Source: Gymnopus androsaceus JB14 (lineage: Eukaryota > Basidiomycota > Agaricomycetes > Agaricales > Omphalotaceae). From it: a stretch of DNA of 64,000 bases. The translations under genes were made by a program, and so were the position numbers. Every line of letters starts with the position of its first letter. Positions within the stretch are counted from its first letter, which is position 1. This document shows positions 10,661-43,826 of this stretch, in pieces. The stretch covers positions 1 through 64,000 of the forward strand of contig ML769601.1 of the NCBI GenBank assembly GCA_009733575.1. The letters run 5' to 3'. Under the pieces are notes generated by a model that searched no databases, was not told the origin of the DNA, and saw only the letters and a list, made by a program, of their open reading frames with translations.

Positions 10661-10748
10661 ATGAGTGCTCCGCGTCTAATTCAGTGCACGTGTCCATCAA
10701 TTTTTTTTCTTCATCGCGCTCATCGTGAGCAACTCTCCTTCTCTTCTA

Positions 10749-12826
10749 ATGACTTCAAATATGCAAAATGGCACTGCTGATGCAGCAGCAGAAGCCTCCA
10801 ACATCCCAGCTCTCGTTGGAATCAATTTCGGAAATTCCTTTGCATCGATTGCCGTTTTCACAAAGGTTTTTTTGATTTCCCAAAATGCGGTCGATCTAAG
10901 GCTGAATTCTCCGATTATTATAGGATGGACTTGCGGAATGTATCGCAAATGAAGACGGAGAACGGCAGATAGCTTGCGCTTTATCATTCTTTGGTGAAGA
11001 AATGGTTAGATCGTTCGTTGAGCCTGAAGGAAGCAGATGAATTTATCTATCGTTCTATCTGCAGTACATCGGAAGCCCAGCAAAGGCACAGCTCGTAAAA
11101 AACGCCAAAAACACCATCGTAGGTTTCCGCAATCTTTTGGGTAAAAAGTACGTCTTTTCTGCTTTTGTACCAACTACTGAACGCTAATGATTTGCTTGGT
11201 AGATTTTCGGATATTCCCCAATCGCAATCAACGACCTCTGCCCCAGTCATTCAACATCCAGAGCTATCAGATGAGCCTGCATACAAAGTTGAAATCCTCC
11301 AACCAGCTCCAGCACCTCTGCCAAAAAGCACCTCCGGTACTCCGGCCGCGTCATCTGCACCTACTCCTCGCTCCGAACCCATCCCTGCTGAGCGCATCCT
11401 CACAGTTTCCGAGGTAACCACAATATTCCTCAAATCTCTTCTGCAATCCGCCGAAGACTTTTTGGGAAAGAAAGTCCAGGGTGCTGTAATCACGGTGCCC
11501 TCGATTTTCACCGATGCTCAAAAAGACGCGCTCGAAAAAGCCGCTGCCGATGCGGGCATCGTTGTATATCAATTATTAGAAGAACCCGCGGCTGTGGCTG
11601 CAACCACTACTACGGAGGCCTGGAGCCCGACACTTGCTGTCGATCGTACACAGCTCGTTGTTGATGTCGGTTCTTCCTCTCTCTCCCTCTCCCTTCTCGC
11701 TCTCCGTGACGGTTTAGCCCACATCCTCGCCTCTTCCTCCTCAGCTGGCATCGGCGGTGACGCTATCGACTCGAAACTCACCACCTTTTTCGCCAACGAA
11801 TTCACCAAAAAGACCAAAACCCCATTGACGGTCTGCTCCGAAAAACCATCTATTGCTGATGCCCGTGCCGAAGCCAAGCTTCGCCTTGCCGTTGAGCACA
11901 CCAAGCGGACTATCAGTGCTTCGCCTGGTGCTGCTACATGTTCCGTCGAGTCGCTCAAGGACGGCGTGGACTTTACCAGCTCCATCAATCGTCTTCGATT
12001 TGACATGCTCGTCCGCCCAATATATGACTCTATCGCTCGATCTGTCGCTGATCTCCTCGATTCAGCCAAGGTCGACCCACATCACGTCGACGAAATTGTG
12101 TATGTCGGCGGTACGACGTGTTTACCTGGCCTCGACGAGCACCTGTGTCTCACCGCTGGGTTCAACGAGGATATCAACACACCATTCAGCATGGGTACCG
12201 TTATCGGTGGAGGAATCGGCGACCCTACCACGGTCCTTGCTCGTGGGTGTGCGTTGCAAGCTGCTTTGATCGCTTCTTTAACAGAACAAGACGCGGAACT
12301 CAAAAAGGCCTTTGAGCGCAACTCTGAGCTAACAGAGGTGAAAACCACGTCGAAGATACTTGGCTTGGTGTTCCCTGACGAGTCTGGAAACGAGCTTGGA
12401 GGAACTTGGATTCCTCTTGTGCCTGCAGAGACGGTTCTCCCTGCTAGGCGAACAGCCACGTTTGACATTGGGCTTTCTGAACAGTCGAAGCGGTTTGCGT
12501 TTGAGTTGTGGGAGGTTTCGGAAGGGATCGAGTAGAGAAAGTTGTACCTCCCAAGGGAGAAGCGGTTGATGACGAGGAGGAAGAGGAGGAAGAGGAAGAA
12601 GTCGAGGTGAAGCACAAGACGCTTACGAAGGAGGCGTTAATAGGTGCTGCTGAAGCACAAGCAGCGTTGGGGATACAGGTGAAGGGGCCGTCCAAGGAAG
12701 CTGGAAAGTGGACAACGACTGTCGAGGCGACAATCATTGTAGAGGCTTCTGGTGCTGTAGACGTGTACGGTGAAGGAGATTGGCAAGGACGGAGCGGTGG
12801 CTACTGTCAAGGCTCCTGCACCTTGA
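10749..12826 (+). CDS. SSZ1: SSZ1-type Hsp70 of the ribosome-associated complex, with 3' frame breaks
   Basis: Ssz1 is the atypical Hsp70 that pairs with Zuo1 at the ribosome exit tunnel and helps nascent chains fold. Exons: 10749-10865, 10924-11004, 11065-11147, 11203 onward, with three introns of 55-60 bp. N-terminal PALVGINFGNSFASIAVF is the Ssz1-like phosphate loop region. Further on are NAKNTIVGFRNLLGKK, AVITVPSIFTDAQK, IVYVGGTTCLPGL and GDPTTVLARGCALQAALIAS. The frame stops at 12535 after WEVSEGIE, but the adjacent frame continues the family's C-terminus (RVEKVVPPKGEAVDDEEEE, then AALGIQVKG). After a second slip near 12775 it ends with GKDGAVATVKAPAP at 12826. These are two single-base breaks in a conserved gene, so either assembly indels or early decay. 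Fragments lie at 17490-17600 and 29702-30354. Confidence 0.85.
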
Positions 12827-12987
12827 TTGACTATACTCATTTGGTTTTTGCGATACATGTTATGCGTAGATATTCGTTTTAGATTAATATCTATGGCGTA
12901 CCAATAATTTGAAATTAACGCGCTACGCGATTCGGTAAACCAGTAGCCGAGAGCCGGTCGTTGCGCCACACTCTTTCTCGAGCCATC

Positions 12988-14247
12988 ATGGACGCTAGTA
13001 ACCTTGCTCAACAACATACCATGAGTAACCTCTCCTCAAAATGGATCAAAGTCTCTGAGCCCTTCCCACATGTCTTGCTCGTAGAGCTTTCTCGGTACGC
13101 GACTTTTATCCGGATGGTTCAAGTACCCGCGATTTACATGATCATGCACAGGAAACCAGTGAATGCCTTTTGCACAGAGTGGGTATTGGGATGTATTATG
13201 CTTTCTGAAACAATAACTCAACTTAAACACAGATTCTGGCAAGCTTACGGCGCCTTGTTCAATTCCATTTCAGAAGAAACCTCTGACGTGAGAGCTGTGG
13301 TACTCTCCTCCGCTTTCCCGGATATCTTCACCGCTGGATTAGACTGTGCGTACAAGTGGTACCTTTTCTAATGCCCAATACATACATACTCATTTCTATG
13401 CAGTGCTCGAAGCAGGAGATCTAGCCCAAACCACAGCTGACGCTGATTCCGTTCAGACTACCGACCCTGCTCGAGTAGCTTTAGACTTCCCAAAACTAAT
13501 CAAGCCCTTCCAAGAAGCTATTACCGCTCCAGAGAGATGTCTATTCCCTGTTATTGCGGCGATACATGGTATAGTTGTTGGTCTGGGCGTAGATATCGTG
13601 GCTGCGTGTGATATTCGATATGCTGCGTCGAATGCGAGGTTTACAATCAAGGTTCATTATATCGCTCTTCCTAGAGGGTATTTCGACTTGCTAACCGAAT
13701 GCGAATGTGATTAGGAATCGACATCGGCTTGGCAGCAGACATGGGAACTCTCGCCTACCTACCAAAGATAACTGGAAACATGAGTCTCGTTCGCGAGATG
13801 GCCTATACGGCGCAGTTTTTCCCAGCAACCAAGGCGGAGCAGATGGGTCTGGTGTCAAAGGTCGTTGACGGAGGGAGGAAAGAGGTTGTTGCTGCAGCAT
13901 TGGATCTAGCAAAGCTTATTGCGACGAAGAGCCCTGTGGCGGTTAGTGGGACAAAGAGGCTTATTTCACATGCTAGGGATCATTCGTACGTCTCTTCTTA
14001 ATGCGTTGTGGTACTGTGAACTGACCTTCGAGATAGTGTTGCAGAGAACCTGGAATATACATCTATCTGGAACTCTGCTATGCTCCAAACAAAGGTACGA
14101 GGGATACATTCCCTCGTTCAATGTAATATTAACGATGGATGTTATTTCTTTTAGGATATGATGGAAAGCTTGGTGGCGACCAAGACAAAACGACCCGCCA
14201 ATTTTTTACCGCTAAACTACAAATTCGGACTCAAGTCCAAGCTTTGA
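12988..14247 (+). CDS. ECH1: Delta(3,5)-delta(2,4)-dienoyl-CoA isomerase, peroxisomal (ECH1-like)
   Basis: Crotonase-fold enzyme that isomerises dienoyl-CoA in beta-oxidation of unsaturated fatty acids. Exons: 12988-13094 (an alternative ATG at 13021 gives MSNLSSKWIKV), 13152-13178, 13233-13345, 13404-13651, then from 13715 through two more introns to 14247. Conserved blocks: FTAGLDLLEAGD, PVIAAIHG, GVDIVAACDIRYAASNARF, IDIGLAADMGTLAYLPK, KSPVAVSGTKR and HSVAENLEY. The C-terminus KSKL gives a PTS1 signal for peroxisomal import. One base is missing at the start of exon 5: GAATCGAC here, GAAATCGAC in the copy at ~33087. That hits the codon for the catalytic Glu of the K-E-(I/V)-D motif. The rest is open and conserved. 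It is convergent with the RMP gene at 15415-16853. Confidence 0.85.
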
Positions 14248-14329
14248 TTCGAATTACAGTGAATTTTTTTTTGGACCATCTACATCGCGTATTGGTCTGC
14301 ACTGTAATATCTATGTCGCTTTCGTTCAG

Positions 14330-14770
14330 TCGAGGGTAAATAACTACTTGGCATACTCGGTCGGTGATGGTGAGCTCTTTGTGTGACTGACAGAGGCCTG
14401 TAATCTCGTTTTCAAGTTTCCACGGGGGTTTTTTTGGACTCTGATATTCCGTGTGCACAAGCAAGGCTAAGTATGACAGTGTATGTATCGTGAGGTTTCC
14501 GCGGGTCTTATTGGAGTTATTCGACGAAGAGGATACTCTCATCTCAGTCAGAGGCGCATTGAAAATCCTAACTAAGTTATACGAGACTAAGTACGTGTGT
14601 CCTACATTCTATTAGAGAAATGACTCAGGACTGTGTTTGGAAGCGTATACAGGAAGAAGAGTTGATTGCAACAGGTTATAGATACTATGATAGATCATGA
14701 AACCGAGTAAATAGTAATCGAGCATTGGGCGGTCTACATAGTTATTTAGCTAGTCCAAGTCATGTTCCAT
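14330..14770. repeat. ECH1 3' flank shared with the F-box-bearing repeats
   Basis: The ordered words CCTGTAATCTCGTTTTCAAG, CTGATATTCCGTG, GAAGAGGATACTCT, GTAATCGAGCATTGGGC and GAGCTAGTCCAAGTC-like recur at 21.7-23.1 kb and 24.95-26.35 kb. Here the ~1 kb in between (22.0-22.95 kb there) is absent. This ties the F-box repeats to the same duplicated block as ECH1. Confidence 0.6.
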
Positions 14771-14799
14771 GAATAACGATAAATGCACATATCTTGTTA

Positions 14800-15501
14800 C
14801 GCCTTGAATGGGGAACTCAGATGTGATGAGACGAGACTGGGCGAGCAGATTCCAATAATCTTTATTGATAGACCTTTGATAAACCTTTGAGAGTCTGTGA
14901 AATCTGCGAAATCCGTGTTGTTCCATCCCACTCGTCAGATTGACACCACAATGGGTCAGGTCAGACTCAAGATGGCTGGATCATTCAAAGGGTCTCTACT
15001 TATAAGAATCTTGTCACGGAATTGAAATCTGACTAGTCGCTGAACCATGATGAACTCTTTCATTGGGTACAAGATTTAGATATCAATCAATGAGTTTTAC
15101 AATCACCCCAACACATAATCAATTTTGGCAGAGACCAAGCAGCGAAAGGGGAGAAAGAGAGCAAGAAAGGAGAAAACCAACGACGAGATGCATAAAGGAC
15201 AAGTTTGAAGACAAGATAGGTAGCTTCAACATTTTACACATGGAGACATAGAAGCGCAAGGACAGATACTGGTACATAGAGAGCAAACGGAAAAGCAAAC
15301 GAGTACAAGAGCAAGAAAGTAAAAGTGAAAAGGACAGGCCAGACCGTGACGTGAACTTTCAACAGTCCAATCAAGCGCATTCAGTTGGGATGTCGTACAG
15401 TGCGTATCGACGCGTTATAAACCAGCTCTAAGCAAGCTCCCATCAATCCACGTTAGTCGGTGAAGGGACGACAAGTAACGTACTGTTCTACTTTCACACT
15501 T
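14800..15501 (-). repeat. Inverted-repeat arm (partner 17655-18350)
   Basis: The 3' end and downstream flank of RMP-C recur as the reverse complement at 17655-18350, for example GGATTGATGGGAGCTTGCTT and GTGTCAATCTGACGAGT. Together the arms enclose RMP-C in a large palindrome-like structure. Confidence 0.8.
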
Positions 15502-16853
15502 TACCGGAAGATAAGTCTTACCCCACCATCGGTAAGGGATTGCTATGCCTACCACAAGAGCAAAGATCAGCGGAGGTTTCGGAGGGACATTACTACTCAC
15601 AAAGATGATACCATTCTTCATCTGGTCCGAAATCCGTCACCTCACTCTCGAATCGCTGAAGGAACATTCAAATCAGAACCGCATTAATGGGAGACCCAAA
15701 AATTACCTGGAGCCCAGAACCAACACATCCCTATAACCATTCAAAAATCAGTGGAGTCAAAGGAAAGAGCCATAGTAAGGCTACTCACAAGGCGTTCCAT
15801 ACTCATCAAAGTAGGCCGACAATCTGAATGCTCGAGATACCAAGTCCCAACCATCCGATCTTCATCCCAACCACAAGAATCTGGCTGACGGAATGTACTG
15901 ATACCAAAAGCCTGATAAACTCGACTCAGAAGACCAGTAACCCCGGAAATCCGTAAAGGTGCTTCGAAACAAGTCTTCAACGGATCCATCTCGTGGGGTA
16001 TCTTATCGAGAACTGCAGTGTACGTCTTTTGGTCGTAGGTATAGCACGAGTGAGGGGTTACCCTTGCCCACTGGGGTGCGCAGGAAATGTCTTGAACGTT
16101 CCAATATCCTTTGAGTACCAAAGTTCCATCATCTTGTCGCGCCAACTCACATACGGGATACGAAATTTTCTGCTGGATGATTGCAGGAGTAGCTTTGCAC
16201 GAAGCTAGTGTATCCAGTCCCGGCGGTACGTGTAAATCTGCCTGATATGTACGCACTCCATACGAAGAGCAATTGGAGCTGATGGCGGACCATACAGGAA
16301 CACAATCACTTTGATCCAAATCGACTACCCATCGGCCTTGAACCGTAGTTGTAGAATTGAGAGCTGGTGCAACTGTGCATATGGGGGAAGTCGAGACTGC
16401 TTTTCCGTGAACAAAGAAGCTAGTCTTCATACAAGCTTCTATGTTGTCCCAATCTTCCGGTACGTTAGAGAGTGTAGCTGTGTACTGGCGAGCACCAATG
16501 GCAGAACACATCGAATCAGGAGTGATGTCGACCCAGAACGATGTGAGTTCACTTTTCCAGGGGAAGAAGATGATGAACAGCAGGACCGTGATAAACAGCA
16601 GGACTGAAATGATAATCAGGACCGCAATGGCAAGAAGCTTTGGGTCTTTCAGTACCCATTTGCCGGAGCTACGGTTGGACCTGATTAGCTTCGTTGACAG
16701 CAAAGGATTACGCTCGCCAGCCTCTCTAAACCGCACACTACTCCTTGAAGGTGGTGTTGCGGAAACAGCACCGGCCAAGAATCCGGAAGAGCTGGATTGG
16801 CGAGGGGAGTAGCTGGGCGGTGGATCGGGGCTGAATAGAGGATGGTAAGCAGG
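15415..16853 (-). CDS. RMP-C: single-pass Cys-rich repeat membrane protein, one-repeat paralogue, initiator ATG missing
   Basis: Third paralogue of the RMP family (see RMP-A). The order is a Ser/Arg-rich N-terminal tail, a transmembrane helix (LLAIAVLIIISVLLFITVLL region), domain 1 (SFWVDITPDSMCSAIGARQY), one central ~75-residue repeat, the CAPQWARVTPHSC domain, then a C-terminal domain from small exons. Exons on minus: 16853-15789, 15730-15707, 15655-15601, 15548-15415. These restore CVGSGLQRFESEVTDFG and IAIPYRWWGKTYLP. The position matching the ATG of the other copies reads CCT (16853-16851), and an in-frame TGA lies just upstream, so either an unseen 5' exon supplies the start or the copy is dead. 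It is convergent with ECH1. Confidence 0.7.
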
Positions 16854-16925
16854 TGAAATTCATACGGGATTCGAAGACATTACTGAAGCATCACTCGATG
16901 AAGAAAGCAGGTTCCTGCGGTGTAC

Positions 16926-16931
16926 CACGTG
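16926..16931. promoter_or_regulatory. CACGTG palindrome upstream of RMP-C
   Basis: The E-box-type palindrome lies in GTACCACGTGGATA, ~70 bp upstream of the RMP-C reading frame. The same words occur ~75 bp upstream of the RMP-B ATG (36480-36485). RMP-A has the mutated form CCACGTCGTAC. Binding by a bHLH factor is inference. Confidence 0.35.
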
Positions 16932-17489: not shown

Positions 17490-17600
17490 GAAGGAAGCAG
17501 ATGAGTTTATCTACCGTCCAATCTGCAGTACATTGGAAGCCCAGCAAGGGTCTAGCTCGTAAAAACGCCAAAAACACCATCGTAGGTTTCCGCAATCTTA
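17490..17600 (+). pseudogene. SSZ1 fragment: end of intron 2 plus exon 3
   Basis: Matches 11028-11135 of SSZ1: GAAGGAAGCAGATGA in the intron, CTGCAG acceptor, then exon 3 with AACGCCAAAAACACCATCGT. It carries small deletions and ends abruptly at CGCAATCTT. It is fused by chance into a longer open frame that runs into the RMP 3' fragment. That frame is not a gene. Confidence 0.85.
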
Positions 17601-17654
17601 ATCCGACACTCCCGACGATGAACTCTCCGACTCCGACGACAAGGAAGCCACAGT

Positions 17655-18350
17655 GTGAAAGTAGAACAGTACGTTACTTGTCGTCCCTTCACCGACTAAC
17701 GTGGATTGATGGGAGCTTGCTTAGAGCTGGTTTATAACGCGTCGATACGCACTGTACGACATCCCAACTGAATGCGCTTGATTGGACTGTTGAAAGTTCA
17801 CGTCTGGCCTGTCCTTTTCACTTTTACTTTCTTGCTCTTGTACTCGTTTGCTTTTCCGTTTGCTCTCTATGTACCAGTATCTGTCCTTGTGCTTCTATGT
17901 CTCCATGTGTTAAATGTTGAAGCTAGCTGTCTTGTCTTTAAACTTGTCCTTTGTGCATCTCGTCGCTGCCTTTCTCCTTTCTTGCTCTCTTTCTCCCTTT
18001 TTGCTGCTTGGTCTCGATTATGTGCTGGGATGATTGTAAACCTCATTGATTGATATCTAAATCTTGTACTCCCGAGTCCCAGTGAAAGCATTCAGCGTGG
18101 TTCAGCGACTAGTCAGATTTCAATTCCAATTTCCGTGACGAAATTCTTATGAGTAGACCCTTTGAACGATTCAGCCATCTCGAGTCTGATCTGACCCGAT
18201 TGTGGTGTCAATCTGACGAGTAGGATGGAACAACACGGATTTCGCAGATTTCGCAGACTCTCAAAGGTTTATTGAAGGTCTATCAATAAAGATTATTGGA
18301 ATCTGCTCGCTCGGTCTCGTCTCATCACATCTGAGTCCCCCCCCCTTCAA
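17655..18350 (+). repeat. RMP 3'-end fragment; inverted partner of 14800-15501
   Basis: Starts within the last RMP exon (TGTGAAAGTAGAACAGTACG, encoding the CESRTVRYLSS tail) and continues through the downstream flank to just before the RMP-A promoter. No upstream RMP exons are attached. Confidence 0.8.
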
Positions 18351-18519
18351 GGCGTAAAAAGATATGTGCATTTATCATCATTCATGGAACACAGCTTAGA
18401 CTAGAAAATGGCAATCGAAATCGAATTTCCGAAATCAAAGGCGTCACACGCTGACACTACGTTATCCACGTCGTACACCACAGCTTGCTTTCTTCCTTGC
18501 TTTCTTCACCGTTGCAGTG

Positions 18520-20621
18520 ATGACTTACCATCCTATATGCAAACCCATTCCACCGTCTAGCTACCCTCGCAGATCCAGCTCTTCCAGATCCTTGACCGGT
18601 GCTGTTTCCACAACAGCGCCTTCAAGGAGTAGTAGTGTGCAGTCTAGAGAGGCTGGAGAGCGTAGCCCTTTACTGTCCAAGCAGCTACCCGAGTCCAATC
18701 GTAGCTTCGATAGATGGGTACCGAAAGACCCGAACGTTCTTGTCTTTGCAGTCCTGTTTATCGTTGCGGTCCTAGTGCTGTTTATCTTTGCGGTCCTGCG
18801 GCTGTTCATCACCCCCTTCCAGTCACCACCAATCACGAAAAGTAAACTCACATCGTTCTGGGTCGACATCACTCCTGATCCGATGTGTTCCACCATTGGT
18901 GCTCGCCAGTACACAGCTACGCTCTCTAACGTGCCGGAAGACTGGGACAACGTAGAAGCTTGCATGAAGACTAGGTTCTATGTTCACGGAAAAGTAGTCT
19001 CGACTTCCCCCATATGCACGGTTGCATCAGCTCTTAATTCTACGACTATTGTTCAAGGCCGATGGACAATCGATTTCGACCAAAGCGATTGTGTTCCTGT
19101 ATGGTCCGCCATCAGCTCCAATTGCTCTTCGTATGGAGTGCGTACATATCAGGCAGATTTACACGTACCTCCGGGACTGGATACATCGTCTTCGTGCAAA
19201 GCTACTCCTGCGATCATCCAGGAGAGAAAATTGTATCCCGAGTGCGAATTGGCGCGACAGGATGATGGAAGTTTTGTAGCCAAAGGCCATTGGAACTTCT
19301 TTGATCAAAGTGAATGTGTTCCTGTATGGTCCGCTATCAGCTCCCATTGCTCTTCGTATGGAGTGCGTACATATCAGGCAGATTTACATGTACCGCCGGG
19401 ACTGGATGCACTATCTTCATGCAAAGCTACTCCTGCGATTATCCAGGAGAAGAAATTGTATCCCGAGTGTGAATTGGCGCGACAGGATGATGGAACTTTT
19501 GTAGCCAAAGGCCATTGGAACTTTTTTGATCAAAGTGATTGTGTTCCTGTATGGTCCGCTATCAGCTCCCATTGCTCTTCGTATGGAGTGCGTACATATC
19601 AGGCAGATTTACATGTACCGCCGGGACTGGATGCACTATCTTCGTGCAAAGCTACTCCTGCGATTATCCAGGAGAAGAAATTGTATCCCGAGTGCAAATT
19701 GGCGCAACAGGATGATGGAACTTTTGTAGCCAAAGGCCATTGGAACTTTTTTGATCAAAGTGAATGTGTTCCTGTATGGTCTGCTATCAGCTCCCATTGC
19801 TCTTCGTATGGAGTGCGTACATATCAGGCAGATTTGCATGTACCGCCAGGACTGGATACGCTATCTTCATGCAAAGCTACTCCTGCAATCATCCAGGGGA
19901 AAAGTTTGCATCCCAAGTGTGAGTTGACGCAACAGGATGATGGAACTTTGGTAGCCAAAGGACATTGGAACATTTCAGATACTTCCTGTGCACCCCAATG
20001 GGTAAGGGTAACTCCTCACTCATGCTATACCTATGATCAAAAGAGGTACACTGCAGTTCTTGATAAGATACCCCATGAGATGGATCCATTGAAGACTTGT
20101 TTTGAAGCACCTTTGCAGTTTTTCAGGGACATCAGTCCTCTGAGTCGAGTTTATCGGGCTTTCAGTATCAATACATTCCACAAGCCAGATTCTTGTGGTT
20201 GGGATGAAGATCAGATGGTTGGGACTTGGTATCTCGAACATTCAGATTGTCGGCCTACTTTGATCAGTATGCAACACTATGTAAGTAGCCTTGCTACTGC
20301 TCTTTCCTTTGATTGGGCTGATCTTTGAATGGTTATAGGGATGTGTTGGCTCTGGGCTCCAGGTGATTTTTGGGTTTCCTCATAATACAGTTCTTATTTG
20401 AATGTTCCTTCAGCGGTTCGAAAGTGAGGTGGCGGATTTCGGGCCACATGAAGATTGGTATCATCTTTGTGAGTAGCAATGTCTTTTCAAAGTCTCCGCT
20501 GATCTCTGCTTTTCTGGTAGGCATAGCAATCCCTTACCAGTGGCAGGGTAAGACTTATCTTCCGTTAAAGTGTGAAAGTAGAGAAGTACGTTATCTGTTG
20601 TCCCTTCACCGACTGACATGA
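18520..20621 (+). CDS. RMP-A: single-pass membrane protein with four 75-residue Cys-rich tandem repeats
   Basis: ATG at 18520. Exons 18520-20280, 20339-20362, 20414-20468, 20521-20621, giving 646 residues. Stopping in exon 1 read-through gives a shorter product. A Ser/Arg-rich cytosolic tail (1-65) is followed by one hydrophobic helix (~72-98) and a Cys-rich ectodomain. Domain 1 has WVDITPDPMCSTIGARQY and ACMKT. Four near-identical 225 bp repeats follow, each with CVPVWSAIS, CSSYGVRTYQADLHVPPGLD, CKATPAII and YPECEL, ending GHW. Then comes a CAPQWVRVTPHSC domain. The small exons add a last module, GCVGSGLQRFESEVADFGPH and CIAIPYQWQGKTYLP. The pattern C...G.R.Y.A.L...C.xTP..I.G..P..C..G.W recalls Agaricomycete proteins of unknown function. 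The topology suggests a type II surface protein. Function unknown. Confidence 0.8.
19081..19980 (+). repeat. Four tandem 225 bp coding repeats in RMP-A
   Basis: Units start at 19081, 19306, 19531 and 19756 (each CAAAG-GA-TGTGTTCCTGTA). RMP-C has one such unit, so the array arose by unit duplication. Units 2 and 3 are closest to each other. Confidence 0.92.
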
Positions 20622-21329
20622 ATTAATGGGAACTTGCTTAGAGCTGGGGTAAAACGCGTCGATATGTACTGTACAACATCCCAACTGATCAATGCGCTTG
20701 ATTGGACTGTTGAAAGTCGGCGTCTGGCCTGTCCTTTTTACTTTTACTTTCTTGCTCGTTTGCTTTGTCGTTTGCTCTCTGTGTACCAGTATCTGTCCTT
20801 GTGCTTCTACATCTCCATTTGTAAAATGTTGAAGCTACCTATCTTGTCTTTAAAATTGTCTTTTGTGCATCTCGTTGTTGCTTTTCTCCTTTCTTGCTCT
20901 CTTTCTCCCTTTTTCTGCTTGGTCTCTGCCAAAGTCGATTATGTGCTGGGATGATTGTAAAACCCATTGATATCTAAACCTTGTACCCTCAATGAAAGAG
21001 TTCAGCGTGGTTCAACTACTAGTCCGATTTCAATTCTGTCACGAGAGAGACCCTTTGAACGATTCAGCCATCTTGAGTCTGACCTGACCCGATTGTGGTG
21101 TCAATCTCATGAGTAGGCTGGAATAACACGGATTTCGCAGATTTCGCAGAGACTCTCAAAGGTTTATTGAAGGTCTATCGATAAAGATTATTGGAATCCA
21201 CTCGGAAGATGGGTTAGTAGTTATTTACCCTCGATTGAACGAAAGCGATATAGAAAGCCTGACAACAAGTTACAATGCAGACCAACACGCGATGTAGATG
21301 GTCCAAAAAAAATCACTAAATTCGAATCA

Positions 21330-21455
21330 GAGCTTGGACTTGAGTCCGAATTTATAATTTAGCGGTAAAAAATTGGCGGGTCGTTTCGCCTTGGTCGCAA
21401 CCAAGCTTTCCATCATATCCTAGAGGAAACAACGATCATCGTTAATATTACATTG
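21330..21455 (-). pseudogene. ECH1 3'-end fragment, minus strand
   Basis: The reverse complement reads the ECH1 last exon from GATATGATGGAAAGCTTGGTTGCGACC through the PTS1 region, plus part of the preceding intron. It is convergent with RMP-A, as ECH1 is with RMP-C. Confidence 0.85.
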
Positions 21456-21472
21456 AACGGGGGAATGTACTG

Positions 21473-21627
21473 TACGAGGGGTACATTCTTCCGTCTAATG
21501 TACTATTCATGATGGGCCTTACTTGCTCTCGCAGGATATGATGGAAAGCTTAGTAGCGACCAAGGCGAAACGACCCGCGAATTTTTTACCGCTAAATTAC
21601 AAAGTTGGACTCAAGTCCAAGCTTTGA
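21473..21627 (+). pseudogene. ECH1 3'-end fragment, plus strand
   Basis: Carries the ECH1 last intron and last exon, ending AAGTCCAAGCTTTGA (KSKL stop). It lies head-to-head with the fragment at 21330-21455, with only ~17 bp between. It begins direct repeat unit 1. Confidence 0.85.
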
Positions 21628-21959
21628 TTCAATTCAATGATTTCTTGTCCATCCACATCGCGTATTGTTCCGCATTGTAGCCTGTATTCGTTTGATCGAG
21701 GGTAAACGACCGCTTGGCGTACTCACTCGATGCCGGTGAGCTCTCGTATCATCGTTGTGTGACCGAAATCCGACAACAGACTTATTACACCTGTAATCTC
21801 GTTTTCAAGTTTCCATTGGACCCTGATATTCCGTGCGTACAAGTAAGGCTAAATTCGACACCTTCGCTCTACCTATTGTACTCGAGTATGTATCGCGAGG
21901 TTTTCTCGGAGATATTTGAAGAAGAGGATACTCTAACATAAGAGGATGGTCGTTACTTA

Positions 21960-22900
21960 CCTATATATATGTCCTTGTTAGTTGATTCTCCCCATTCGAC
22001 ACGATGGTCTCTATCTCTCACTGAACACCACAGCTTAGATCCCGATCCAATTGAGCAGACTGGACGAGGAAATCTGAACCTCTGTCTTATCCGTCTACTC
22101 CATCTTCCCATCTCCAATAGTTCATGTCTTGCTTGTAATCACCCTTTTTATCACTGCGACCATATCTCATCTCTTGTTTCCCTGTGTTAGTCTTAATGCG
22201 CTGGAAAGGATGTCAGGTTACTCGATAAGACGTTTCATCAAGGATTGGTTAATGGTTCGCTTTATGACGAGGATTTTAGTGGGTTTGAAGTCAATTTTAT
22301 CCAGTGCCAGTGAGTAATTCTCAACCCATTGAATGTTTTCTTTTACTTCCGTTCGACAACTTCGAAGGCTCATGAACACCGCATCACGAATCCGACTCGA
22401 AACATACGAAGTGCGCACCCTCTCATGGCTATCGTACCACTTATATGCTATAATTGCGTGTCATGACGATATCGAAGCTTTTCGAATTTCGAATTTGGTG
22501 AGTGATATAATACGCTTTGACCTTTTAACTACGCTCCTTCCTCTTATACCCCACTGTACCTTTTTCTGAGCCGTCCAATAATTCGAATTCCTTACTTATA
22601 CTTCAATTACCTACGATGCTATCTAGCCAGCATCGGAGAAAAACAAGCAAACACAATATAAGCTTGAGATCGATAGAAGACAAATGGTTCATGGGACGTC
22701 AGCTAATAATATTACCAGTGAGTAACTTTGGCCTATACCTGAATTTGACATAGTTGCTGCTCCATCCTCATTGATAAATTCCGTGCGCAGTGCAGGATTT
22801 CAAGATATATGTATACGCTTGCAGATGAGCTCTACGCATTGCTGAAGCGGAGTTTCAGTTTGGGAGTACGAGACTAGCTATAGGTACTTCCTAGATTCTG
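21960..22900 (+). other. Possible spliced small gene, present also at 25200-26130
   Basis: Both repeat units contain + frames of 62-73 codons bounded by good donors (GTGAGTAATTC, GTGAGTGATA, GTGAGTAACT...ACATAG). The frames include LERMSGYSIRRFIKDWLMVR and RLMNTASRIRLE. No family recognised. They may be noncoding. Confidence 0.25.
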
Positions 22901-23095
22901 AAGAGAAAACCCGCATATAAATTGGGATATGAGGTCGAATATGGGTTTGGAAAAGACAAACTCAAATGCATTATAAAAATGACTGTGTTCGGAAGCATGT
23001 ACTGGAAGAAGAGTTGAATGCAACAGATTATAGACAGATCATAAAACCAACTCAATAGTAATCGAGCATTGGGCAGTCCGACTCTAGTTATTGAG

Positions 23096-24422: not shown

Positions 24423-24427
24423 AAATC

Positions 24428-24871
24428 ACGGCGCAGTTTTTCCCAGCAACCAAGGCGGAGCAGATGGGTCTGGTGTCAAAGGTCGTTGACGGAGGGAGGA
24501 AAGAGGTTGTTGCTGCAGCATTGGATCTAGCAAAGCTTATTGCGACGAAGAGCCCTGTGGCGGTTAGTGGGACAAAGAGGCTTATTTCACATGCTAGGGA
24601 TCATTCGTACGTCTCTTCTTAATACGTTCTGGTACTGTGAACTGACCTTCGAGATAGTGTTGCAGAGAATTTGGAGTATACATCTACCTGGAACTCTGCT
24701 ATGCTTCAGACAAAGGTACGAGGGGTACATTCTTCCGTCTAATGTAATATTCATGATGGGCCTTACTTGCTCTCGCAGGATATGATGGAAAGCTTGGTTG
24801 CGACCAAGGCGAAACGACCCGCGAATTTTTTACCGCTAAATTACAAAGTTGGACTCAAGTCCAAGCTTTGA
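24428..24871 (+). pseudogene. ECH1 C-terminal exon fragment
   Basis: Covers the ECH1 region from AQFFPATKAEQMGLVSKVV through HARDHS, the intron, NLEYTS and the final exon to KSKL. It is joined upstream directly to the truncated F-box gene (junction ~24424-24428). The frame is largely intact, but there is no start. Confidence 0.9.
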
Positions 24872-27667
24872 TTCAATTCAATGATTTCTTGTCCATCCAC
24901 ATCGCGTATTGTTCCGCATTGTAGCCCGTATTCGTTCGATCGAGGGTAAACGACCGCTTGGCGTACTCACTCGATGCCGGTGAGCTCTCGTATCATCGTT
25001 GTGTGACCGAAATCCGACAGCAGACTTATTACACCTGTAATCTCGTTTTCAAGTTTCCATTGGACCCTGATATTCCGTGCGTACAAGGCTAAATTCGACA
25101 CCTTCGCTCTACCTATTGTACTCGAGTATGTATCGCGAGGTTTTCTGGGAGATATTCGAAGAAGAGGATACTCTAACATAAGAGGATGGTCGTTACTTAC
25201 CTATATATATGTCCTTGTTAGTTGATTCTCCCCATTCGACACGATGGTCTCTATCTCTCACTGAACACCACAGCTTAGATCCCGATCCAATTGAGCAGAC
25301 TGGACGAGGAAATCTGAACCTCTGTCTTATCCGTCTACTCCATCTTCCCATCTCCAATAGTTCATGTCTTGCTTGTAATCACCCTTTTTATCACTGCGAC
25401 CATATCTCATCTCTTGTTTCCCTGTGTTAGTCTTAATGCGCTGGAAAGGATGTCAGGTTACTCGATAAGACGTTTCATCAAGGATTGGTTAATGGTTCGC
25501 TTTATGACGAGGATTTTAGTGGGTTTGAAGTCAATTTTATCCAGTGCCAGTGAGTAATTCTCAACCCATTGAATGTTTTCTTTTACTTCCGTTCGACAAC
25601 TTCGAAGGCTCATGAACACCGCATCACGAATCCGACTCGAAAAATACGAAGTGCGCACCCTCTCATGGCTATCGTACCACTTATATGCTATAATTGCGTG
25701 TCATGACGATATCGAAGCTTTTCGAATTTCGAATTTGGTGAGTGATATAATACGCTTTGACCTTTTAACTACGCTCCTTCCTCTTATACCCACTGTACCT
25801 TTTTCTGAGCCGTCCAATAATTCGAATTCCTTACTTATACTTCAATTACCTACGATGCTATCTAGCCAGCATCGGAGAAAAACAAGCAAACGCAATATAA
25901 GCTTGAGATCGATAGAAGACAAATGGTTCCCGGGACGTCAGCTAATAATATTACCAGTGAGTAACTTTGGCCTATACCTGAATTTGACATAGTTGCTGCT
26001 CCATCCTCATTGATAAATTCCGTGCGCGGTGCAGGATTTCAAGATATACGTATACGCTTGCAGATGAGCTCTACGCATTGCTGAAGCGGAGTTTCAGTTT
26101 GGGAGTACGAGACTAGCTATAGGTACTTCCTAGATTCTGAAGAGAAATCCCGCATATAAATTGGGATATGAGGTCGAATATGGGTTTGGAAAAGACAAAC
26201 TCAAATGCATTATAAAAATGACTGTGTTCGGAAGCATGTACTGGAAGAAGAGTTGGATGCAACAGATTATAGACAGATCATAAAACCAACTCAATAGTAA
26301 TCGAGCATTGGGCAGTCCGACTCTAGTTATTGAGCTAGTCCAAGTCGTAAATGTAGCTAATAAAGATGTCCATACCATCGTCCTCGAATTCTTTGAATTC
26401 CCCCCCCTGTATCAACCAATCATCACAAAAGTTGCTATAGAGCCCAACGGTCAGTTTTTGCAAACACGAAGAACTGCGTCTTCTCAAACGGATGAAAATC
26501 ACTAGTAATGACACTTCGCAAATCCCAGTCACCAAAGTGAGCTCCTGTAAATTGGGAAGCAGTAGCCCATCCTGCTCTGAATCGGAGTTATCATTGTTGT
26601 CTGTGTCCCCCCCATCCTCATATCCTGTGTAATCTTCCAACGAATGACGGAGATCCGGAGGCGTCAAAATTTTTAACAGCCGATGCATAAACTTCCCATT
26701 CTGATGAGAATTCTCCTTGTAATGAAAACTTGTGAGATTGTGCACAAGGCGCAGGAGCTGCAAAACTTCGTGCGAAGTGAAAGGGATTCGGTGAAGCGTA
26801 AGATGGGTCAAGGAGGCTTGACTGCGAGTAAGCATGGAGCACAGTGATTTGAGGAAGGAGGGGGCTTCAGAACCCTGCACCGATATTAAGGTAAGGCGAG
26901 CTAGTGCAGGACTAGTAATCTTATCCAACATCAAAGATATGAAGCCTGGAGCTCTCGATGCAAGTGTCTCCATGACAACCTGTATTGACTTTGCATGATG
27001 CAAAATGAGAGGCTGCCATCGCAGCACATTTTCATCACCTATGATATCGAGGATCACATCCTGTACACTTGGGAAATCAGCAAGGATGCGAGAGGCATGC
27101 CAAAAGGTTAACCCTCGCAAATTCGTCGCATTCAACCGTGTCGCAAGGCTGCGTAAATTTGAGATCTACATCAAGACCGCGAAGTTCTAGAGATCGAAGC
27201 TTCGGACAGGTGATTGTGATTGAATCCGAAAATTGCACAAAATCTACATCTCCATAGTCGGAAGTGATCCTGAGGTCAGACAGTTCAGGAAATACCCTCC
27301 CCATTGCAAGCAATGACCGCAAGACTGGTTGGGATTTAGTCATCCGCCCTCTTACGACTACAGAACGCCACCGATTGGTGTTCTGAGTCGAGAAAAATTC
27401 TGTGGTGTCACAAAAGTTCTCGCCCTCGTAATGTCGAATGTTCAGCGAGAAGCTGAGGCTATGTAGACGAGAACGTTCAAGGAAAAGTGGAATCATTGGG
27501 TGAGGCTTTTGGAGATGCGGCGAGTCGAACTCGAAGGAGGACCATAGAGCTGGCATAGAAGCAACAGTATTGTACCATCTGCTACACACTTGGCCAAGAG
27601 CCAGAGTTACCATATAGTGTGCATGTCCAACTCCGATAGTGTTGTCGCCTTGATTTTCGACACGCTT
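24715..27667. repeat. ~3 kb direct repeat, unit 2
   Basis: Partner of 21473-24423. Here the F-box gene continues past the repeat end to its start at 28088, so unit 2 is the parental or complete arrangement. Confidence 0.92.
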
Positions 27668-28088
27668 GAAAATTTCACCTAGAACATCCTGGGGAAGCCT
27701 ACGAATAGGTGCCCTCATCGAAAGGATACCGCGTTTATAGAGACTCAGTCGACTTCTGGAGATCTCCAAGACGGCAGTGAGCCTCTGCAATCGGTCGAAG
27801 CTCGAGCTGAAAACGATCTATGGTTTCCTGCGTGTCGTTTGCTAGAAGATCGAGAGCTGGATCCTCCGAGACGGAGGGAGGATCCCCAGAGCGAATTGCG
27901 CTAACAATATCAGTGCAGCGTAGTTTCTCCATGTTCAGTTGTAATGCATTGGGGGCGACTCGGATATCCTGGGGCAAGTCCAAAACATCACATATGGATC
28001 CTAAAGTCAAAGGAAGAGTATATTAGAACCTGAAACGTGAGATACGGGACTTCCATTTACCTTTCCAGTCTGAAGAATTATGAGCCAT
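26335..28088 (-). CDS. F-box protein with leucine-rich C-terminal half, two frame breaks
   Basis: Substrate receptor type of SCF ubiquitin ligases. Exon 1 (28088-28061) encodes MAHNSSDWK. A 60 bp intron is followed by SICDVLDLPQDIRV and a helical segment typical of agaric F-box proteins, then the F-box core RAPIRRLPQDVLGEIFKRV. LRR-like text follows (CPKLRSLELRGL, TNLRGLTFWHAS, ASLTHLTLHRIPFTS, LLLPNLQELTLVTG). The C-terminus ends YIYDLD at 26335. Two single-base slips occur, near 27786 (CRL to AVLEIS) and near 27160 (CAAATTT, where one fewer A would join LDVDL to NLRSLATR). At least one is in a homopolymer. Substrate unknown. Confidence 0.7.
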
Positions 28089-29498: not shown

Positions 29499-29681
29499 GT
29501 GTCTTCCAGTTTTAGACTCGAAATGCATGTAGGACTGAATGCCAATGAAGCCTACAGCCCCCTTCTACGGCTCCCTCTAGAACATGATCAACATGATCGC
29601 CACACTTACCATGATTCGAGTCTTTTAATCCTCTGTCGCGTCTCCAAGTCTATTCGCGACTTCAGTGTGCGCCCACTGTGA
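29499..29681 (+). pseudogene. F-box N-terminal fragment, fused to the SSZ1 copy
   Basis: Contains LLRLPLEHD...DSSLLILCRVSKSIRDFSVRPL, an agaric F-box core also seen in the relic at 60.6 kb (CRVSKAVGEFSVRSLYRD). It stops exactly where the duplicated SSZ1 5' region begins (GAGAAACTCTCCTTCTC), marking the duplication breakpoint. Confidence 0.7.
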
Positions 29682-29701
29682 GAAACTCTCCTTCTCTTTT
29701 A

Positions 29702-30354
29702 ATGGCTTCAAATATGCAAAATGGCACTGCTGATGCAGCAGCAGAAGCCTCCAACATCCCAGCTCTCGTTGGCATCAATTTCGGAAATTCCTTTGCATCA
29801 ATTGCCGTTTTCATCAGGGTTTTTTTTGATTTCCCAAAATGCGGTCTATTTAAGGCTGATTTATGTTATTATCATAGGATGGACTCGCGGAATGTATCGC
29901 AAATGAAGATGGAGAACGTCAAATAGCTTGTGCTTTATCATTCTTTGGTGAAGAAATGGTTAGATCGTTCGTTGAGCCTGAAGGAAGCAGATGAATTTAT
30001 CTATTGTTCTATCTGCAGTACATCGTCTTTTCTGCTTCTATACAAACTACTGAAGGCTAATGATTTGTTTGGTAGATTTTTGGAGATTCCCCAATCGCAA
30101 TCAACGACCTCTGCCCGGGTTATTCAACATCCAGAACCATCAGATGAGCCTGCATACAAAGTTGAAATCCTCCAACCGGCACCAGCACCTCTGCCAAAAA
30201 GCACCTCCGGTACTCCGGCGGCGTCATCTGCACCTACTCCCCGCTCCGAAACCTGCTGAGCGCATCCTCACAGTTTCCGAGGTAACCACAATATTCCTCA
30301 AATCTCTTCTCCAATCCGCCGAAGACTTTTTGGGAAAGAAAGTCCAGGGTGCTT
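29702..30354 (+). pseudogene. SSZ1 copy 2, truncated
   Basis: ATG and exon 1 (NIPALVGINFGNSFASIAVF) and exon 2 are kept. Exon 3 is deleted, so intron 2 runs straight into intron 3. Exon 4 is frame-shifted in the Pro-rich linker (CGCTCCGAAACCTGCTGAG lacks bases) and ends at AAAGTCCAGGGTGCTT, fused to ECH1 intron 3. Only ~one quarter of the protein is represented. Confidence 0.92.
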
Positions 30355-30435
30355 GATAATGCCCAATACTTACATACTCATCTCTATGTAATGCAGTACT
30401 CGAAGCAGGAGATCTAGCCAAGACCACAGCTGACG

Positions 30436-30489
30436 TTACCTATATGCACCTTAAAAGAGTTCAAAAAAAAAAAAAAAAAAAAAAAAAAA
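30436..30489 (+). mobile_element. 3' stub of a poly-A retroposon with 12 bp target duplication
   Basis: The insert is 27 nt (TTACCTATATGCACC...) followed by 27 A. It is flanked by the exact duplication CCACAGCTGACG (30424-30435 and 30490-30501), which occurs once in the intact ECH1. This is the signature of LINE-mediated insertion with strong 5' truncation. The source RNA is not identifiable from 27 nt. Confidence 0.9.
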
Positions 30490-30659
30490 CCACAGCTGAC
30501 GCTGATCATCCTTAGCGCCGCTGCAGCGGCAGGTCCCCGACTCCCCGGCTAAGTCCGCCAAATCGAATTTCGCTTTCCGCGACCTAGTACAAGTCCTCAT
30601 TATACCGAAGACCATATGTAATTAATTATATAACACCTTAGCACGAAGTACCATGGTAT

Positions 30660-32202: not shown

Positions 32203-32435
32203 CGGAAAAAGAATGTCAGAAAAGAAACGGGAGAGGGATGTACGCTGTATGGCAAAGGGGTTCTTTATTCAGAGTGTGCAAGAGAAGATCATTTACATTT
32301 TCCATTTCTTCAATGATTATAGGTCTATACCAGCAGCTGTGGGCCAGAGGTGGTTTGCGACAAGTTACAATAACGACGCAACCCTTGACTACCGAGACGG
32401 ACCGGATGACAAGGAGTGTATTACAAGACATGGTA

Positions 32436-32813
32436 ATCGGACCGGGCGAGCACAGTCAGATAAACCATATAAGGAGAGAGATGTCATCAAATATGTCATT
32501 TCTTATTAGAAATTGTACGGATAAGAGACTAGATTAACCTAATGTGGATTTTTCTACTGTGGGAAGACCGATCGCAGCAGACAAGGCCCTTTCTCTGCAC
32601 TTCGTTTGAGAGTCGGGGAAGAACTAGTATTCGGACCGGGAAAACACACTGAGATAAACCATAAAAGGAAGGAGATGTCACCAAAAATGACATTTCTTAT
32701 TAGAAATCGTACAGATAAGAGTTTGGATTTGCCTAATGTGGATTTTTCTACTGTGGGAAGACCGATCGCAGCAGACAAGGCCCTTTCTCTGCACTTCGTT
32801 TGAGAGTCGGGGA
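32436..32813. repeat. Two tandem ~190 bp units at the Helitron 5' end
   Basis: The block ending TTCGTTTGAGAGTCGGGGA occurs twice (ends ~32620 and 32813), with matching upstream text TGACATTTCTTATTAGAAAT and CTAATGTGGATTTTTCTACT. The period is about 193 bp. The second unit ends exactly at the ECH1 junction. Confidence 0.88.
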
Positions 32814-34334
32814 TTCCGTTCAAACCACCGATCCTGCTCGAGTAGCTTTAGATTTCCCAAAACTTATCAAGCCCTTCCAAGAAGCCATTACCGCCGCGGA
32901 GAGATGTCTATTCCCTGTTATTGCAGCGATACATGGTATAGTTGTTGGTCTAGGCGTAGATATCGTGGCTGCGCCGTGTGATATTTGATACGCTGCGTCG
33001 AATGCGAGGTTTACAATCAAGGTTTATTATATCTCTCTTCCTAGCGGTTGTTTTCGACTTGCTAATCGAATGCGAATGTGATTAGGAAATCGACATCGGC
33101 TTGGCAGCAGACATGGGAACTCTCGCCTACCTACCAAAGATAACTGGAAACATGAGTCTCGTTCGCGAGATGGCCTATACAGCGTAGTTTTTCCCAGAAA
33201 ACAAGGCGGAGCAGATGGGTGTAGTGTCAAAGGTTGTTGACAGAGGGAGGAATGAGGTTGTTGCTGCTGCATTGGATCTCGCAAAGCTTATTGCGACGAA
33301 GAGTCTTGTGGCGGTTAGTGGGACGAAGAGGCTTATTTCACATGCTAGGGATCATTCGTACGTCTCTTCTTAATACGTTGTGGTACTGTGAACTGACCTT
33401 CGAGATAGTGTTGCAGAGAACCTGGAATATACGTCCACCTGGAACTCTGCTATGCTCCAAACAAAGGTACGAGGAATACATTCCCCCATTTAATGTAATA
33501 TTAACAATGATCGTTGTTTCCTCTAGGATATGATGGAAAGCTTGGTGGCGACCAAGGCAAAATGACCTGCGAATTTTTTACCACTAAATTATAAATTTGG
33601 ACTCAGTCCAAGCTCTGATTCAAATTTAGTGATTTTTTGTCCGTCCACGTTGCGTATTGGTCTGCATTGTAACTTGTTGTCAGGCTATCTATATCGCTTT
33701 CGTTCAATCGAGGGTAAATAACTACTAACACATCTTCTGAGTGGATTCCAAAAATCTTTATCAATAGACCTTCGATAAACATTTGAGAATCTGCGGAATC
33801 AGCGAAATCAGTGTTATTCCAGCCTACTCATCAGATTGACACCACAATCGCGTCAGGTCGGACTCGAGATGGCCGAATCGTTCAAAGGGTCTCTCTCGTG
33901 ATGGAATTGAAATCGGACTAGTAGCTGAACCATGCTGAACTCTTTCGTTGAGTGTACAAGATTTAGATATCAATGGGTTTTACAATCATCCCAGCACATA
34001 ATTGACTTTGGCAGAGACCAAGCAGAAAAAGGGAGAAAGAGAGCAAGAAAGGAGAAAAGCAACAACGAGATGCAAAAAGGAAAGGACAAGTTCAAAGACA
34101 AGATAGGTAGCTTCAACATTTTACAAACGGAGATGAAGAAGCGCAAGGACGGATACTGGTACTTAGAGAGAGCAAACGACAAAGCAAACGAGCAAGAAAG
34201 TAAAAGTAAAAAGGACAGGCCAGACGCGAACTTTCAACAGTCCAATCAAGCGCATTGATCAGTTGGGATGTTGTACAGTACATATCGACGCGTTTTACCC
34301 CAGCTCTAAGCAAGTTCCCATTAATTCACGTCAG

Positions 34335-36406
34335 TCAGTGAAGGGACAACAGATAACGTACTTCTCTACTTTCACACTTTAACGGAAGATAAGTCTTACC
34401 CTGCCACTGGTAAGGGATTGCTGTGCCTAACAGAAGAGCAGAGATCAGGGGAGACTTCGAAAAGACATTGCTACTCACAAAGATGATACCAATCCTCATG
34501 TGGCCCGAAATCCGCCACCTCACTTTCGAATCGCTGAAGGAACATTCAAATAAGAACTGTATTATGAGGAAACCCAAAAATCACCTGGAGCCCAGAGCCA
34601 ACACATCCCTATAACCATTCAAAGATCAGCCGAATCAAAGGGAAGACCCATAATAAGGCCACTTACATAGCGTTGCATACTGATCAAAGTAGGCCGACAA
34701 TCTGAATGCTCGAGATACCAAGTCCCAATCATCGAATCTCTATCCCAACCGCAAGAATTTGGCTTGTGGAATGTATTGATACTGAAAGCCCGATAAACTC
34801 GACTCAGAGGGCTGGTATCCATGAAAAACTGCAAAGGTGCTTCAAAACAAGTCTTCAATGGATCCATCTCATGGGGTATCTTATTGAGAACTGCAGTGTA
34901 CCTCTTTTGATCATAGGTATAGCATGAGTGAGGAGTTACCCTTACCCATTGGGGTGCACAGGAAGTATCTGAAATGTTCCAATGTCCTTTGGCTACCAAA
35001 GTTCCATCATCCTGTTGCGCCAACTCACACTTGGGATGCAAACTTTTCCCCTGGATGATTGCAGGAGTAGCTTTGCATGAAGATAGCGTATCCAGTCCCG
35101 GCGGTACATGCAAATCTGCCTGATATGTACGCACTCCATACGAAGAGCAATGGGAGCTGATAGCGGACCATACAGGAACACATTCACTTTGATCAGAAAT
35201 GTTCCAATGGCCTTTGGCTATAAAAGTTCCATCATCCTGTCGCGCCAATTCGCACTCGGGATACAATTTCTTCTCCTGGATAATCGCAGGAGTAGCTTTG
35301 CACGAAGATAGTGCATCCAGTCCCGGCGGTACATGTAAATCTGCCTGATATGTACGCACTCCATACGAAGAGCAATGGGAGCTGATAGCGGACCATACAG
35401 GAACACAATCACTTTGATCAAAAAAGTTCCAATGGCCTTTGGCTACAAAAGTTCCATCATCCTGTCGCGCCAATTCACACTCGGGATACAATTTCTTCTC
35501 CTGGATAATCGCAGGAGTAGCTTTGCATGAAGATAGTGCATCCAGTCCCGGCGGTACATGTAAATCTGCCTGATATGTACGCACTCCATACGAAGAGCAA
35601 TGTGAGCTGATAGCGGACCATACAGGAACACATTCACTTTGATCAAAGAAGTTCCAATGGCCTTTGGCTACAAAACTTCCATCATCCTGTCGCGCCAATT
35701 CGCACTCGGGATATAATTTTCTCTCCTGGATGATCGCAGGAGTAGCTTTGCACGAAGACGATGTATCCAGTCCCGGAGGTACGTGTAAATCTGCCTGATA
35801 TGTACGCACTCCATACGAAGAGCAATTGGAGCTGATGGCGGACCATACAGGAACACAATCACTTTGGTCGAAATCGATTGTCCATCGGCCCTGAACAATA
35901 GTCGTAGAATTAAGAGCTGATGCAACCGTGCATATGGGGGAAGTCGAGACTACTTTTCCGTGAACATAGAAGCTAGTCTTCATGCAAGCTTCTACGTTGT
36001 CCCAGTCTTCCGGCACGTTAGAGAGCGTAGCTGTGTACTGGCGAGCACCAATGGTAGAACACATCGGATCAGGAGTGATGTCGACCCAGAACGATGTGAG
36101 TTTACTTTTCATGATTGGTGGTGACTGGAAGGAGGTGATGAACAGCAGGACCGCAAAGACAAACAGCACTGGGACCGCAAAGACAAGAAGGTTCGAGTCT
36201 TTCAGTACCCATCTGTTGGAGCTACGGCTGGACTCGGGTAGCTGCTTTGACAGTAAAGGACTACGCTCTCCAGCCTCTCTAGACTGCACACTACTACTCC
36301 TTGAAGGCGCTATTGTGGAAACAGCACCGGTCAAGGATCCGGAAGAGCTGGATCTGCGAGGGTAGCTAGGCGGTGGAACGGGGTTGCATACAGGATGGTA
36401 AGTCAT
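34335..36406 (-). CDS. RMP-B: paralogue of RMP-A with four tandem repeats
   Basis: ATG at 36406 (MTYHPVCNP). Exons on minus 36406-34667, 34608-34585, 34533-34479 and 34426-34335, giving 636 residues. The layout is the same as RMP-A: Ser/Arg-rich tail, one transmembrane helix (LLVFAVPVLFVFAVLLFI), domain 1, four 75-residue Cys-rich repeats, the CAPQWVRVTPHSC domain, and the small-exon module GCVGSGLQRFESEVADFGPH. All splice sites match RMP-A. The tail ends six codons earlier because CGA has become TGA. It is the only gene of block 2 that stays intact beside dead SSZ1 and ECH1 copies. Function unknown. Location, probably a membrane facing outward, is inferred from topology. Confidence 0.82.
34967..35866 (-). 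repeat. Four tandem 225 bp coding repeats in RMP-B
   Basis: Unit boundaries at 35866, 35641 and so on at 225 bp spacing. Units correspond one-to-one with those of RMP-A, so expansion preceded the inverted duplication or was homogenised afterwards. Confidence 0.9.
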
Positions 36407-43765: not shown

Positions 43766-43826
43766 GCGGACTAGCAACTATTCTGTGCTTAGACTCAAAC
43801 AATTTAAGCCGTGTTCTCTACTCAAC

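Follow-up and report, generated by a model that had tools for sequence, protein, structure and literature searches.

The DNA analysed here (the window) is a 64,000-nucleotide stretch of one contig, C219, in the 83.3 Mb, 934-contig assembly of Gymnopus androsaceus JB14, a litter-decay agaric. Three blocks in the window are built from the same genes. These are SSZ1, which codes for a ribosome-associated Hsp70, ECH1, which codes for an enoyl-CoA hydratase/isomerase, and RMP, which codes for a single-pass membrane protein seen here only in a few Marasmiineae. Block 1 consists of SSZ1, ECH1 and RMP-C. Block 2 consists of a 5' piece of SSZ1, an ECH1 whose start is missing, and RMP-B. The third block, which is inverted and lies between the other two, has RMP-A and the tail of an ECH1. 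Self-alignment of the window bears out this layout, which an earlier note on the locus had proposed, inverted block included; the large matches have E = 0, far beyond chance, and the blocks diverge by about 6-16%.

In the comparison of blocks 1 and 2, the SSZ1 segments 10716-11071 and 11151-11485 match 29669-30025 and 30024-30353 (93%), ECH1 matches from 13445-14348 to 32812-33726 (90%), and RMP with its 3' flank matches from 14848-16316 to 33744-35194 and from 16098-16849 to 35651-36402 (85%). The inverted block, 18444-21469, matches 36508-33477 with 93.9% identity over 3059 columns. The scraps of SSZ1 and ECH1 that the earlier note placed at 17.5, 21.5 and 24.4 kb are also present. The first is a forward-strand piece of SSZ1 (17490-17599, 91% to 11026-11136). 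The others come from ECH1, at 21472-21934 (71%) and, on the forward strand, at 24428-25174 (81%), where the first 180 columns equal block 1 exactly and the rest range over 50-97% per 60-column bin. At 21216-21934, two ECH1 tails stand head to head (self inverted repeat 21265-21685, 81%), and their junction at about 21470 is the end of the inverted copy. A directly duplicated stretch of 2.95 kb (21472-27670; 21472-24425 matches 24716-27670 at 98.6%) carries an ECH1 tail and an F-box-like gene, for which the Pfam match to PF12937 in 27077-27817 (E 6.7e-5, 23 bits) is below the cut-off of 24.3. A 3' tail of RMP that the earlier note did not list lies on the forward strand at 17652-18404 (90% to 15500-14750, inverted) and adjoins the start of RMP-A.

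Further copies are found on other contigs. The assembly searches score the best candidates only, and the copy counts are thus lower bounds. An ECH1-RMP DNA query (13500-16900) matches C219, C433 and C112, with short pieces on C79, C144 and C514, and the SSZ1 protein has matches above 33% only on C219 and C433 among the candidates scored. On C433 (48 kb), two SSZ1-ECH1-RMP blocks follow each other head to tail, with an outer SSZ1 that has lost its 5' part and with block copies interrupted by insertions of about 0.4-2.6 kb. Beside these blocks are some frames that we take, by eye, to be Gypsy- and LINE-like.

That a single block was assembled three times can be rejected because the copies are too divergent. 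It is also improbable that alleles were joined into one contig as separate blocks, or that C433 is the other haplotype of the locus. C433 does have the same block order, and most of its pieces are 82-95% identical to block pieces of the window, as such an artefact would have it. However, the three divergent blocks lie on one contig, and a profile search for the RNA-polymerase second-subunit family (PF00562) found only three loci in the assembly. There are three nuclear RNA polymerases, and three loci are the expectation for a haploid-like assembly. In addition, C433 outside the block aligns nowhere in the window among the listed matches of at least 100 columns, and C219 beyond 64 kb has no match to C433:10001-20000, the sole query used there. 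The genome set of PMC8480192 was sequenced with Illumina and PacBio; the excerpt of that paper available here does not name the method for strain JB14.

The SSZ1 and ECH1 copies

Block 1 SSZ1 (10749-12835, forward strand) is nearly intact and ends early. It matches the Pfam HSP70 family (PF00012, E 2e-43) with an Hsp70 nucleotide-binding domain that is most similar to fungal SSZ1, and proteins from ten relatives, one of which is named as an Hsp70 interacting with Zuo1p, are 75-88% identical to it. With 88% identity to a Rhodocollybia protein over a 443-aa query, its product resembles Ssz1 of the ribosome-associated complex. Unlike full Ssz1, it is without roughly the last 95 residues, which are part of the substrate-binding domain. 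Alignment with both C433 paralogues reveals a 1-nt deletion at 12529/12530, leading to a stop at 12533-12535, and a second break, a 1-nt insertion near 12766. The frame thus ends at 12533, some 95 aa short, and a complete substrate-binding domain beta is absent as assembled. The annotated protein (P0012) has 537 aa, and those of the ten relatives have 613-658 aa. In an excerpt of PMC7083937, the substrate-binding domain of yeast Ssz1 is described as binding nascent chains. The two frame breaks could be consensus errors; as assembled, the gene is classed as a truncated SSZ1. At sites invariant in the ten relatives, departures number only 2 of 313 in block 1 SSZ1, 5 of 96 in the C433a fragment, and 38 of 290 in the annotated C433b protein, which is partly made of spurious exons.

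In block 2, only the 5' part of SSZ1 is present (29669-30353, forward strand). The match ends at 30353, where it is joined directly to ECH1 intron/exon DNA. This DNA holds a poly(A) insert at about 30435-30489, flanked by 11-bp direct repeats, which has the look of a retroposon.

Block 1 ECH1 (13021-14247, forward strand) resembles the PF00378 family in that two exon pieces match this crotonase-fold profile above its cut-off (E 7.4e-8 and 1.4e-10). It differs from intact genes of the family in its broken reading frame, in which one nucleotide is missing near 13716, at the beginning of an exon, relative to the three copies aligned there. Block 2 ECH1 (32812-33726, forward strand) has lost its 5' end and is broken as well, by nonsense codons at 32986 (TGA) and 33185 (TAG). 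None of the ECH1 copies of this subtype on C219 and C433 is free of a break, an insert or a truncation. The earlier note was thus correct about the truncated SSZ1 and the stops in ECH1 of block 2. Its statement that block 1 has all three genes stands as far as presence goes, but as assembled none of the three is intact, RMP-C included.

Though broken, these housekeeping copies carry clear marks of past constraint. Maximum-likelihood omega values for block 1 SSZ1 are 0.27 against C433a (p 0.007), 0.21 against C433b (p 3e-10) and 0.22 against block 2 (p 0.012), and the value between C433a and C433b is 0.37 (p 0.014). For block 1 ECH1, they are 0.145 against block 2, 0.26 against C433a and 0.14 against C433b (all p < 1e-4); the 24.4-kb ECH1 scrap has zero differences over 61 codons and is uninformative. 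Block 1 is a member of most of these pairs, and some of the constraint may therefore be peculiar to its lineage. For SSZ1 this does not account for all of it, because the C433a-C433b pair is constrained too.

The RMP genes and their relatives

Two of the RMP genes in the window are intact, each with four 75-aa repeats and with five exons separated by GT-AG introns. RMP-A (18520-20701, forward strand; exons 18520-20280, 20339-20362, 20414-20468, 20521-20585 and 20642-20701) codes for 654 aa. RMP-B (34246-36406, reverse strand; exons 36406-34667, 34608-34585, 34533-34479, 34426-34362 and 34305-34246) codes for 647 aa and has the clean splice sites ascribed to it in the earlier note; its annotation (P0001, 572 aa) omits one repeat. 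RMP-C (15371-16880, reverse strand) has one ectodomain repeat. Its seventh codon, counted from the conserved ATG at 16880, is an in-frame TGA (16862-16860), and the five-exon frame is open from 16859; the public annotation, P0003, uses a different start. On C433, both RMP copies are broken: one has a 1-nt shift and an insert of 2.6 kb, and the other has a premature stop and an insert of 0.7 kb. C112 carries a complete five-exon gene of 419 aa, start present, with no SSZ1 or ECH1 alongside. Intact genes therefore make up three of the six copies found in the assembly (A, B and C112) and two of the five that lie in blocks. The claim that RMP was kept in every copy thus holds for RMP-A and RMP-B, which are complete, but not for RMP-C or for either C433 copy.

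These genes belong to an unnamed membrane-protein family with a variable number of repeats, found in a few mushrooms. RMP was rejected as a member of a known family: one of the three window frames had a match (E up to 0.01), which was below the cut-off, and the best Pfam E value for the 12 proteins of alignment A2 was 0.01. In the first member of A2, the only one with cut-offs shown, both Pfam matches are under them. A PDB sequence search with RMP gave no match at E up to 1, and a Foldseek search with the whole P0001 model gave just one match under 0.001, with an rmsd of 19. The model of a single RMP domain is a predicted small beta-sandwich, and its top structural hits are for the most part Ig-like or FNIII domains. 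On this predicted structure, the ectodomain would resemble those of tandem Ig-like membrane proteins. We suggest that the domains may have an Ig-like fold, and RMP could have a role in surface binding or adhesion.

The family in relatives was surveyed by protein matches (7 proteins in one search and 10 in another, the 10 coming from a capped list of 7994 candidates). Rhodocollybia and Stygiomarasmius have two RMP paralogues each, and in both cases these are probably on one contig, since the contigs are equal in length. SSZ1 and RMP were both found in three relatives, Tetrapyrgos, Stygiomarasmius and Rhodocollybia, and in each of them the contigs that carry the two genes differ in length. On this ground an ancestral SSZ1-RMP neighbourhood is rejected, and the linkage of the two genes looks lineage-specific.

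Constraint, decay and duplication

The RMP genes have evolved under weaker constraint than their neighbours. On a codon tree of six copies (283 codons outside the repeat array), half of whose rows, those of RMP-C and the two C433 copies, come from broken genes that were read piecewise, omega is 0.83 (p 0.20 against 1); this and the other omega tests use ungapped codons only. The ectodomain gives 0.59 (186 codons, p 0.006), and the cytosolic tail with the membrane helix gives 1.31 (97 codons, not significant). Omega does not distinguish intact copies from broken ones (p = 0.85), the branches of RMP-A and RMP-B alone give p 0.49, and none of the 15 pairs, likewise compared outside the array, singly rejects an omega of 1. 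The repeat arrays compared with that of C433 have omega values of 0.36 for A (p 0.005) and 0.42 for B (p 0.012). The earlier note had counted a dN/dS near 1 among the RMP copies against its own reading; such values are found outside the ectodomain, and the ectodomain is constrained. It had also set the decay of the housekeeping genes against possible selection on RMP. RMP-A and RMP-B did stay open, but SSZ1 and ECH1 have omega values of 0.14-0.37. The SSZ1 and ECH1 copies were more tightly constrained than RMP as they diverged, and their breaks came late. Frames judged by eye to be kept or lost can thus mislead, as the broken housekeeping copies are the more constrained ones.

The frames of RMP-A and RMP-B are nevertheless better preserved than neutral decay would predict. 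Among copies A, B, C and C112, with both C433 copies left out, all 12 gaps in RMP exon 1 have lengths divisible by three, as against 3 of 14 noncoding gaps from introns, the small exons 2-5 and the 3' flank (p 4.7e-5). Adding C433AB, from C433, brings in one 1-nt indel in exon 1. RMP-A and RMP-B differ at 52 of 1944 coding sites, and their noncoding DNA differs at 66 of 979 sites (6.7%), with 5 indels. A neutral simulation at the noncoding rate, which models neither splice sites nor gene conversion (conversion could erase breaks in the array), yielded two intact frames in none of 20000 runs; when the lower-bound indel rate was used, the probability of having no frameshifts alone was 0.07. An excess of intact copies over the neutral expectation is found for RMP-A and RMP-B only, and they are unlikely to be open by chance. 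Neutral decay as the only process, with the two genes open because they are young, agrees with the A-B omega of 0.85 over the whole coding sequence (p 0.58). We regard this explanation as very improbable, given the noncoding divergence, the simulation, the in-frame coding indels and the constrained ectodomain.

The earlier note suggested that selection may favour extra RMP copies. Such selection would act on dosage or on diversification of a surface receptor, and the neighbours would be decaying passengers. The intact state of A and B, the in-frame indels of exon 1, the solo C112 gene carried without SSZ1 or ECH1, and the paired paralogues in Rhodocollybia and Stygiomarasmius are all consistent with this. 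However, omega is not below 1 outside the ectodomain and shows no difference between intact and broken copies, half of the RMP copies found are broken, and the neighbours are the more constrained genes. Retention of A and B is what stands, and retention of copies differs from selection for their number. We therefore consider selection for copy number a possible but unproven and rather doubtful explanation.

The repeat arrays have a history of their own. Only 10 of 888 sites differ between the four-repeat arrays of A and B (p 9e-11 against the noncoding 66 of 979), and these arrays differ from the C433 array at 36 of 837 (A) and 39 of 837 (B) sites. Outside the array, A, B and C433 are about equally distant (dS 0.07-0.09). 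The repeats match best in register (A.R1-B.R1 99.6%, R2-R2 99.6%). These data fit gene conversion between the inverted copies as the process that homogenised the two arrays. Strong selection confined to the array is a less likely cause, since the array is also poor in synonymous differences (4 of 199 sites, compared with 14 of 194 outside it).

Overall, we think it probable that the locus is the product of ordinary segmental duplication, and that the copies decayed unevenly around a lineage-restricted membrane protein that evolves fast. A tandem duplication of an SSZ1-ECH1-RMP segment in the lineage of G. androsaceus would have come first, and further copying would then have given rise to C433 and the inverted copy A; the order of these events is our inference. 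Partial copies and later insertions may have arisen in transposon-rich DNA. The SSZ1 and ECH1 copies would have been functional through most of their divergence and broken late, and the fast-evolving RMP would have kept its frame in A and B. In such a protein, the ectodomain, a putative string of small beta-sandwich domains, would be constrained, the cytosolic tail and membrane helix would drift, and gene conversion would have homogenised the A and B arrays. The partial and inverted copies, fusions, nonsense and frameshift breaks, retroposon-like insert and transposon-rich surroundings are all as in local segmental duplications with differential pseudogenisation, and uneven decay here is a fairly ordinary fate of duplicated DNA. 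The locus differs from the typical case in that its housekeeping copies were long constrained before they broke, and in that one member is in frame in two copies with homogenised repeat arrays.

Of the questions that this locus leaves, the most interesting concern the condition of SSZ1 and the RMP family, which has no name yet. It can be checked whether any intact SSZ1 exists in G. androsaceus. In a highly unlikely reading, RMP is a fungal surface-receptor family of tandem Ig-like domains, amplified locally and homogenised by conversion between inverted copies as in recognition gene clusters, and the amplification truncated the sole SSZ1. If true, the fungus would be left with a chaperone missing part of its substrate-binding domain.

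RIP- or CpG-type mutation was rejected as the cause of decay. CpG sites account for 24 of 96 C-to-T singletons, compared with 194 of the 1030 C sites of the reference row, a mild excess.

Repeat arrays of the membrane-protein gene

The 75-aa repeat arrays of RMP-A (19087-19998) and RMP-B (34949-35860), two intact copies of the membrane-protein gene RMP, differ by 1.1%, whereas the noncoding DNA of the two copies differs by 6.7%. Because the arrays are so much closer than the noncoding DNA, gene conversion between these inverted copies is likely. Elsewhere in the genome, a weak RMP-like match at C209:60175-60369 (29% identity, E 4e-5) is perhaps a distant RMP paralogue.

State of SSZ1 and ECH1

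Block 1 carries the best SSZ1 (Hsp70 family) of the assembly, though its C-terminus is about 95 aa short; no intact SSZ1 is found among the matches listed in the assembly search. Alignment against both copies on contig C433 places two 1-nt indels in this gene, at 12529-12535 and ~12766. Either a consensus error or a real truncation accounts for its early end.

The ECH1 scrap at 24428-24610 matches block 1 from 13807 with 100% identity over 180 columns, and beyond these the identity is 50-97% per 60-column bin. This pattern could reflect either a mosaic or recent conversion. Read by eye, the block 1 ECH1 frame apparently closes with Ser-Lys-Leu (14230-14247), which is a peroxisomal targeting signal.

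Other duplications and inserted elements

An F-box-like gene is directly duplicated (26335-27817, minus strand, and 22891-24425), and this duplication is recent; there are two long open frames in the second copy but only short ones in the first. A further direct repeat of ~1 kb lies at 43794-46174 (43794-44817 and 45138-46174, 83% identity), and several contigs carry related sequences (66-88%).

The Tc1-like element at 663-2206 combines a transposase match (PF01498, 663-1553) with terminal inverted repeats (728-803/2127-2202), and copies of 94-96% are present on C208, C101, C50 and C163. Within ECH1-derived DNA, an insert at 30435-30489 consists of a 27-nt poly(A) and a short leader flanked by 11-bp direct repeats, and appears retroposon-like. 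On C433, an insert with inverted ends (~44.02-44.47 kb), MITE-like as judged by eye, separates SSZ1 from ECH1.
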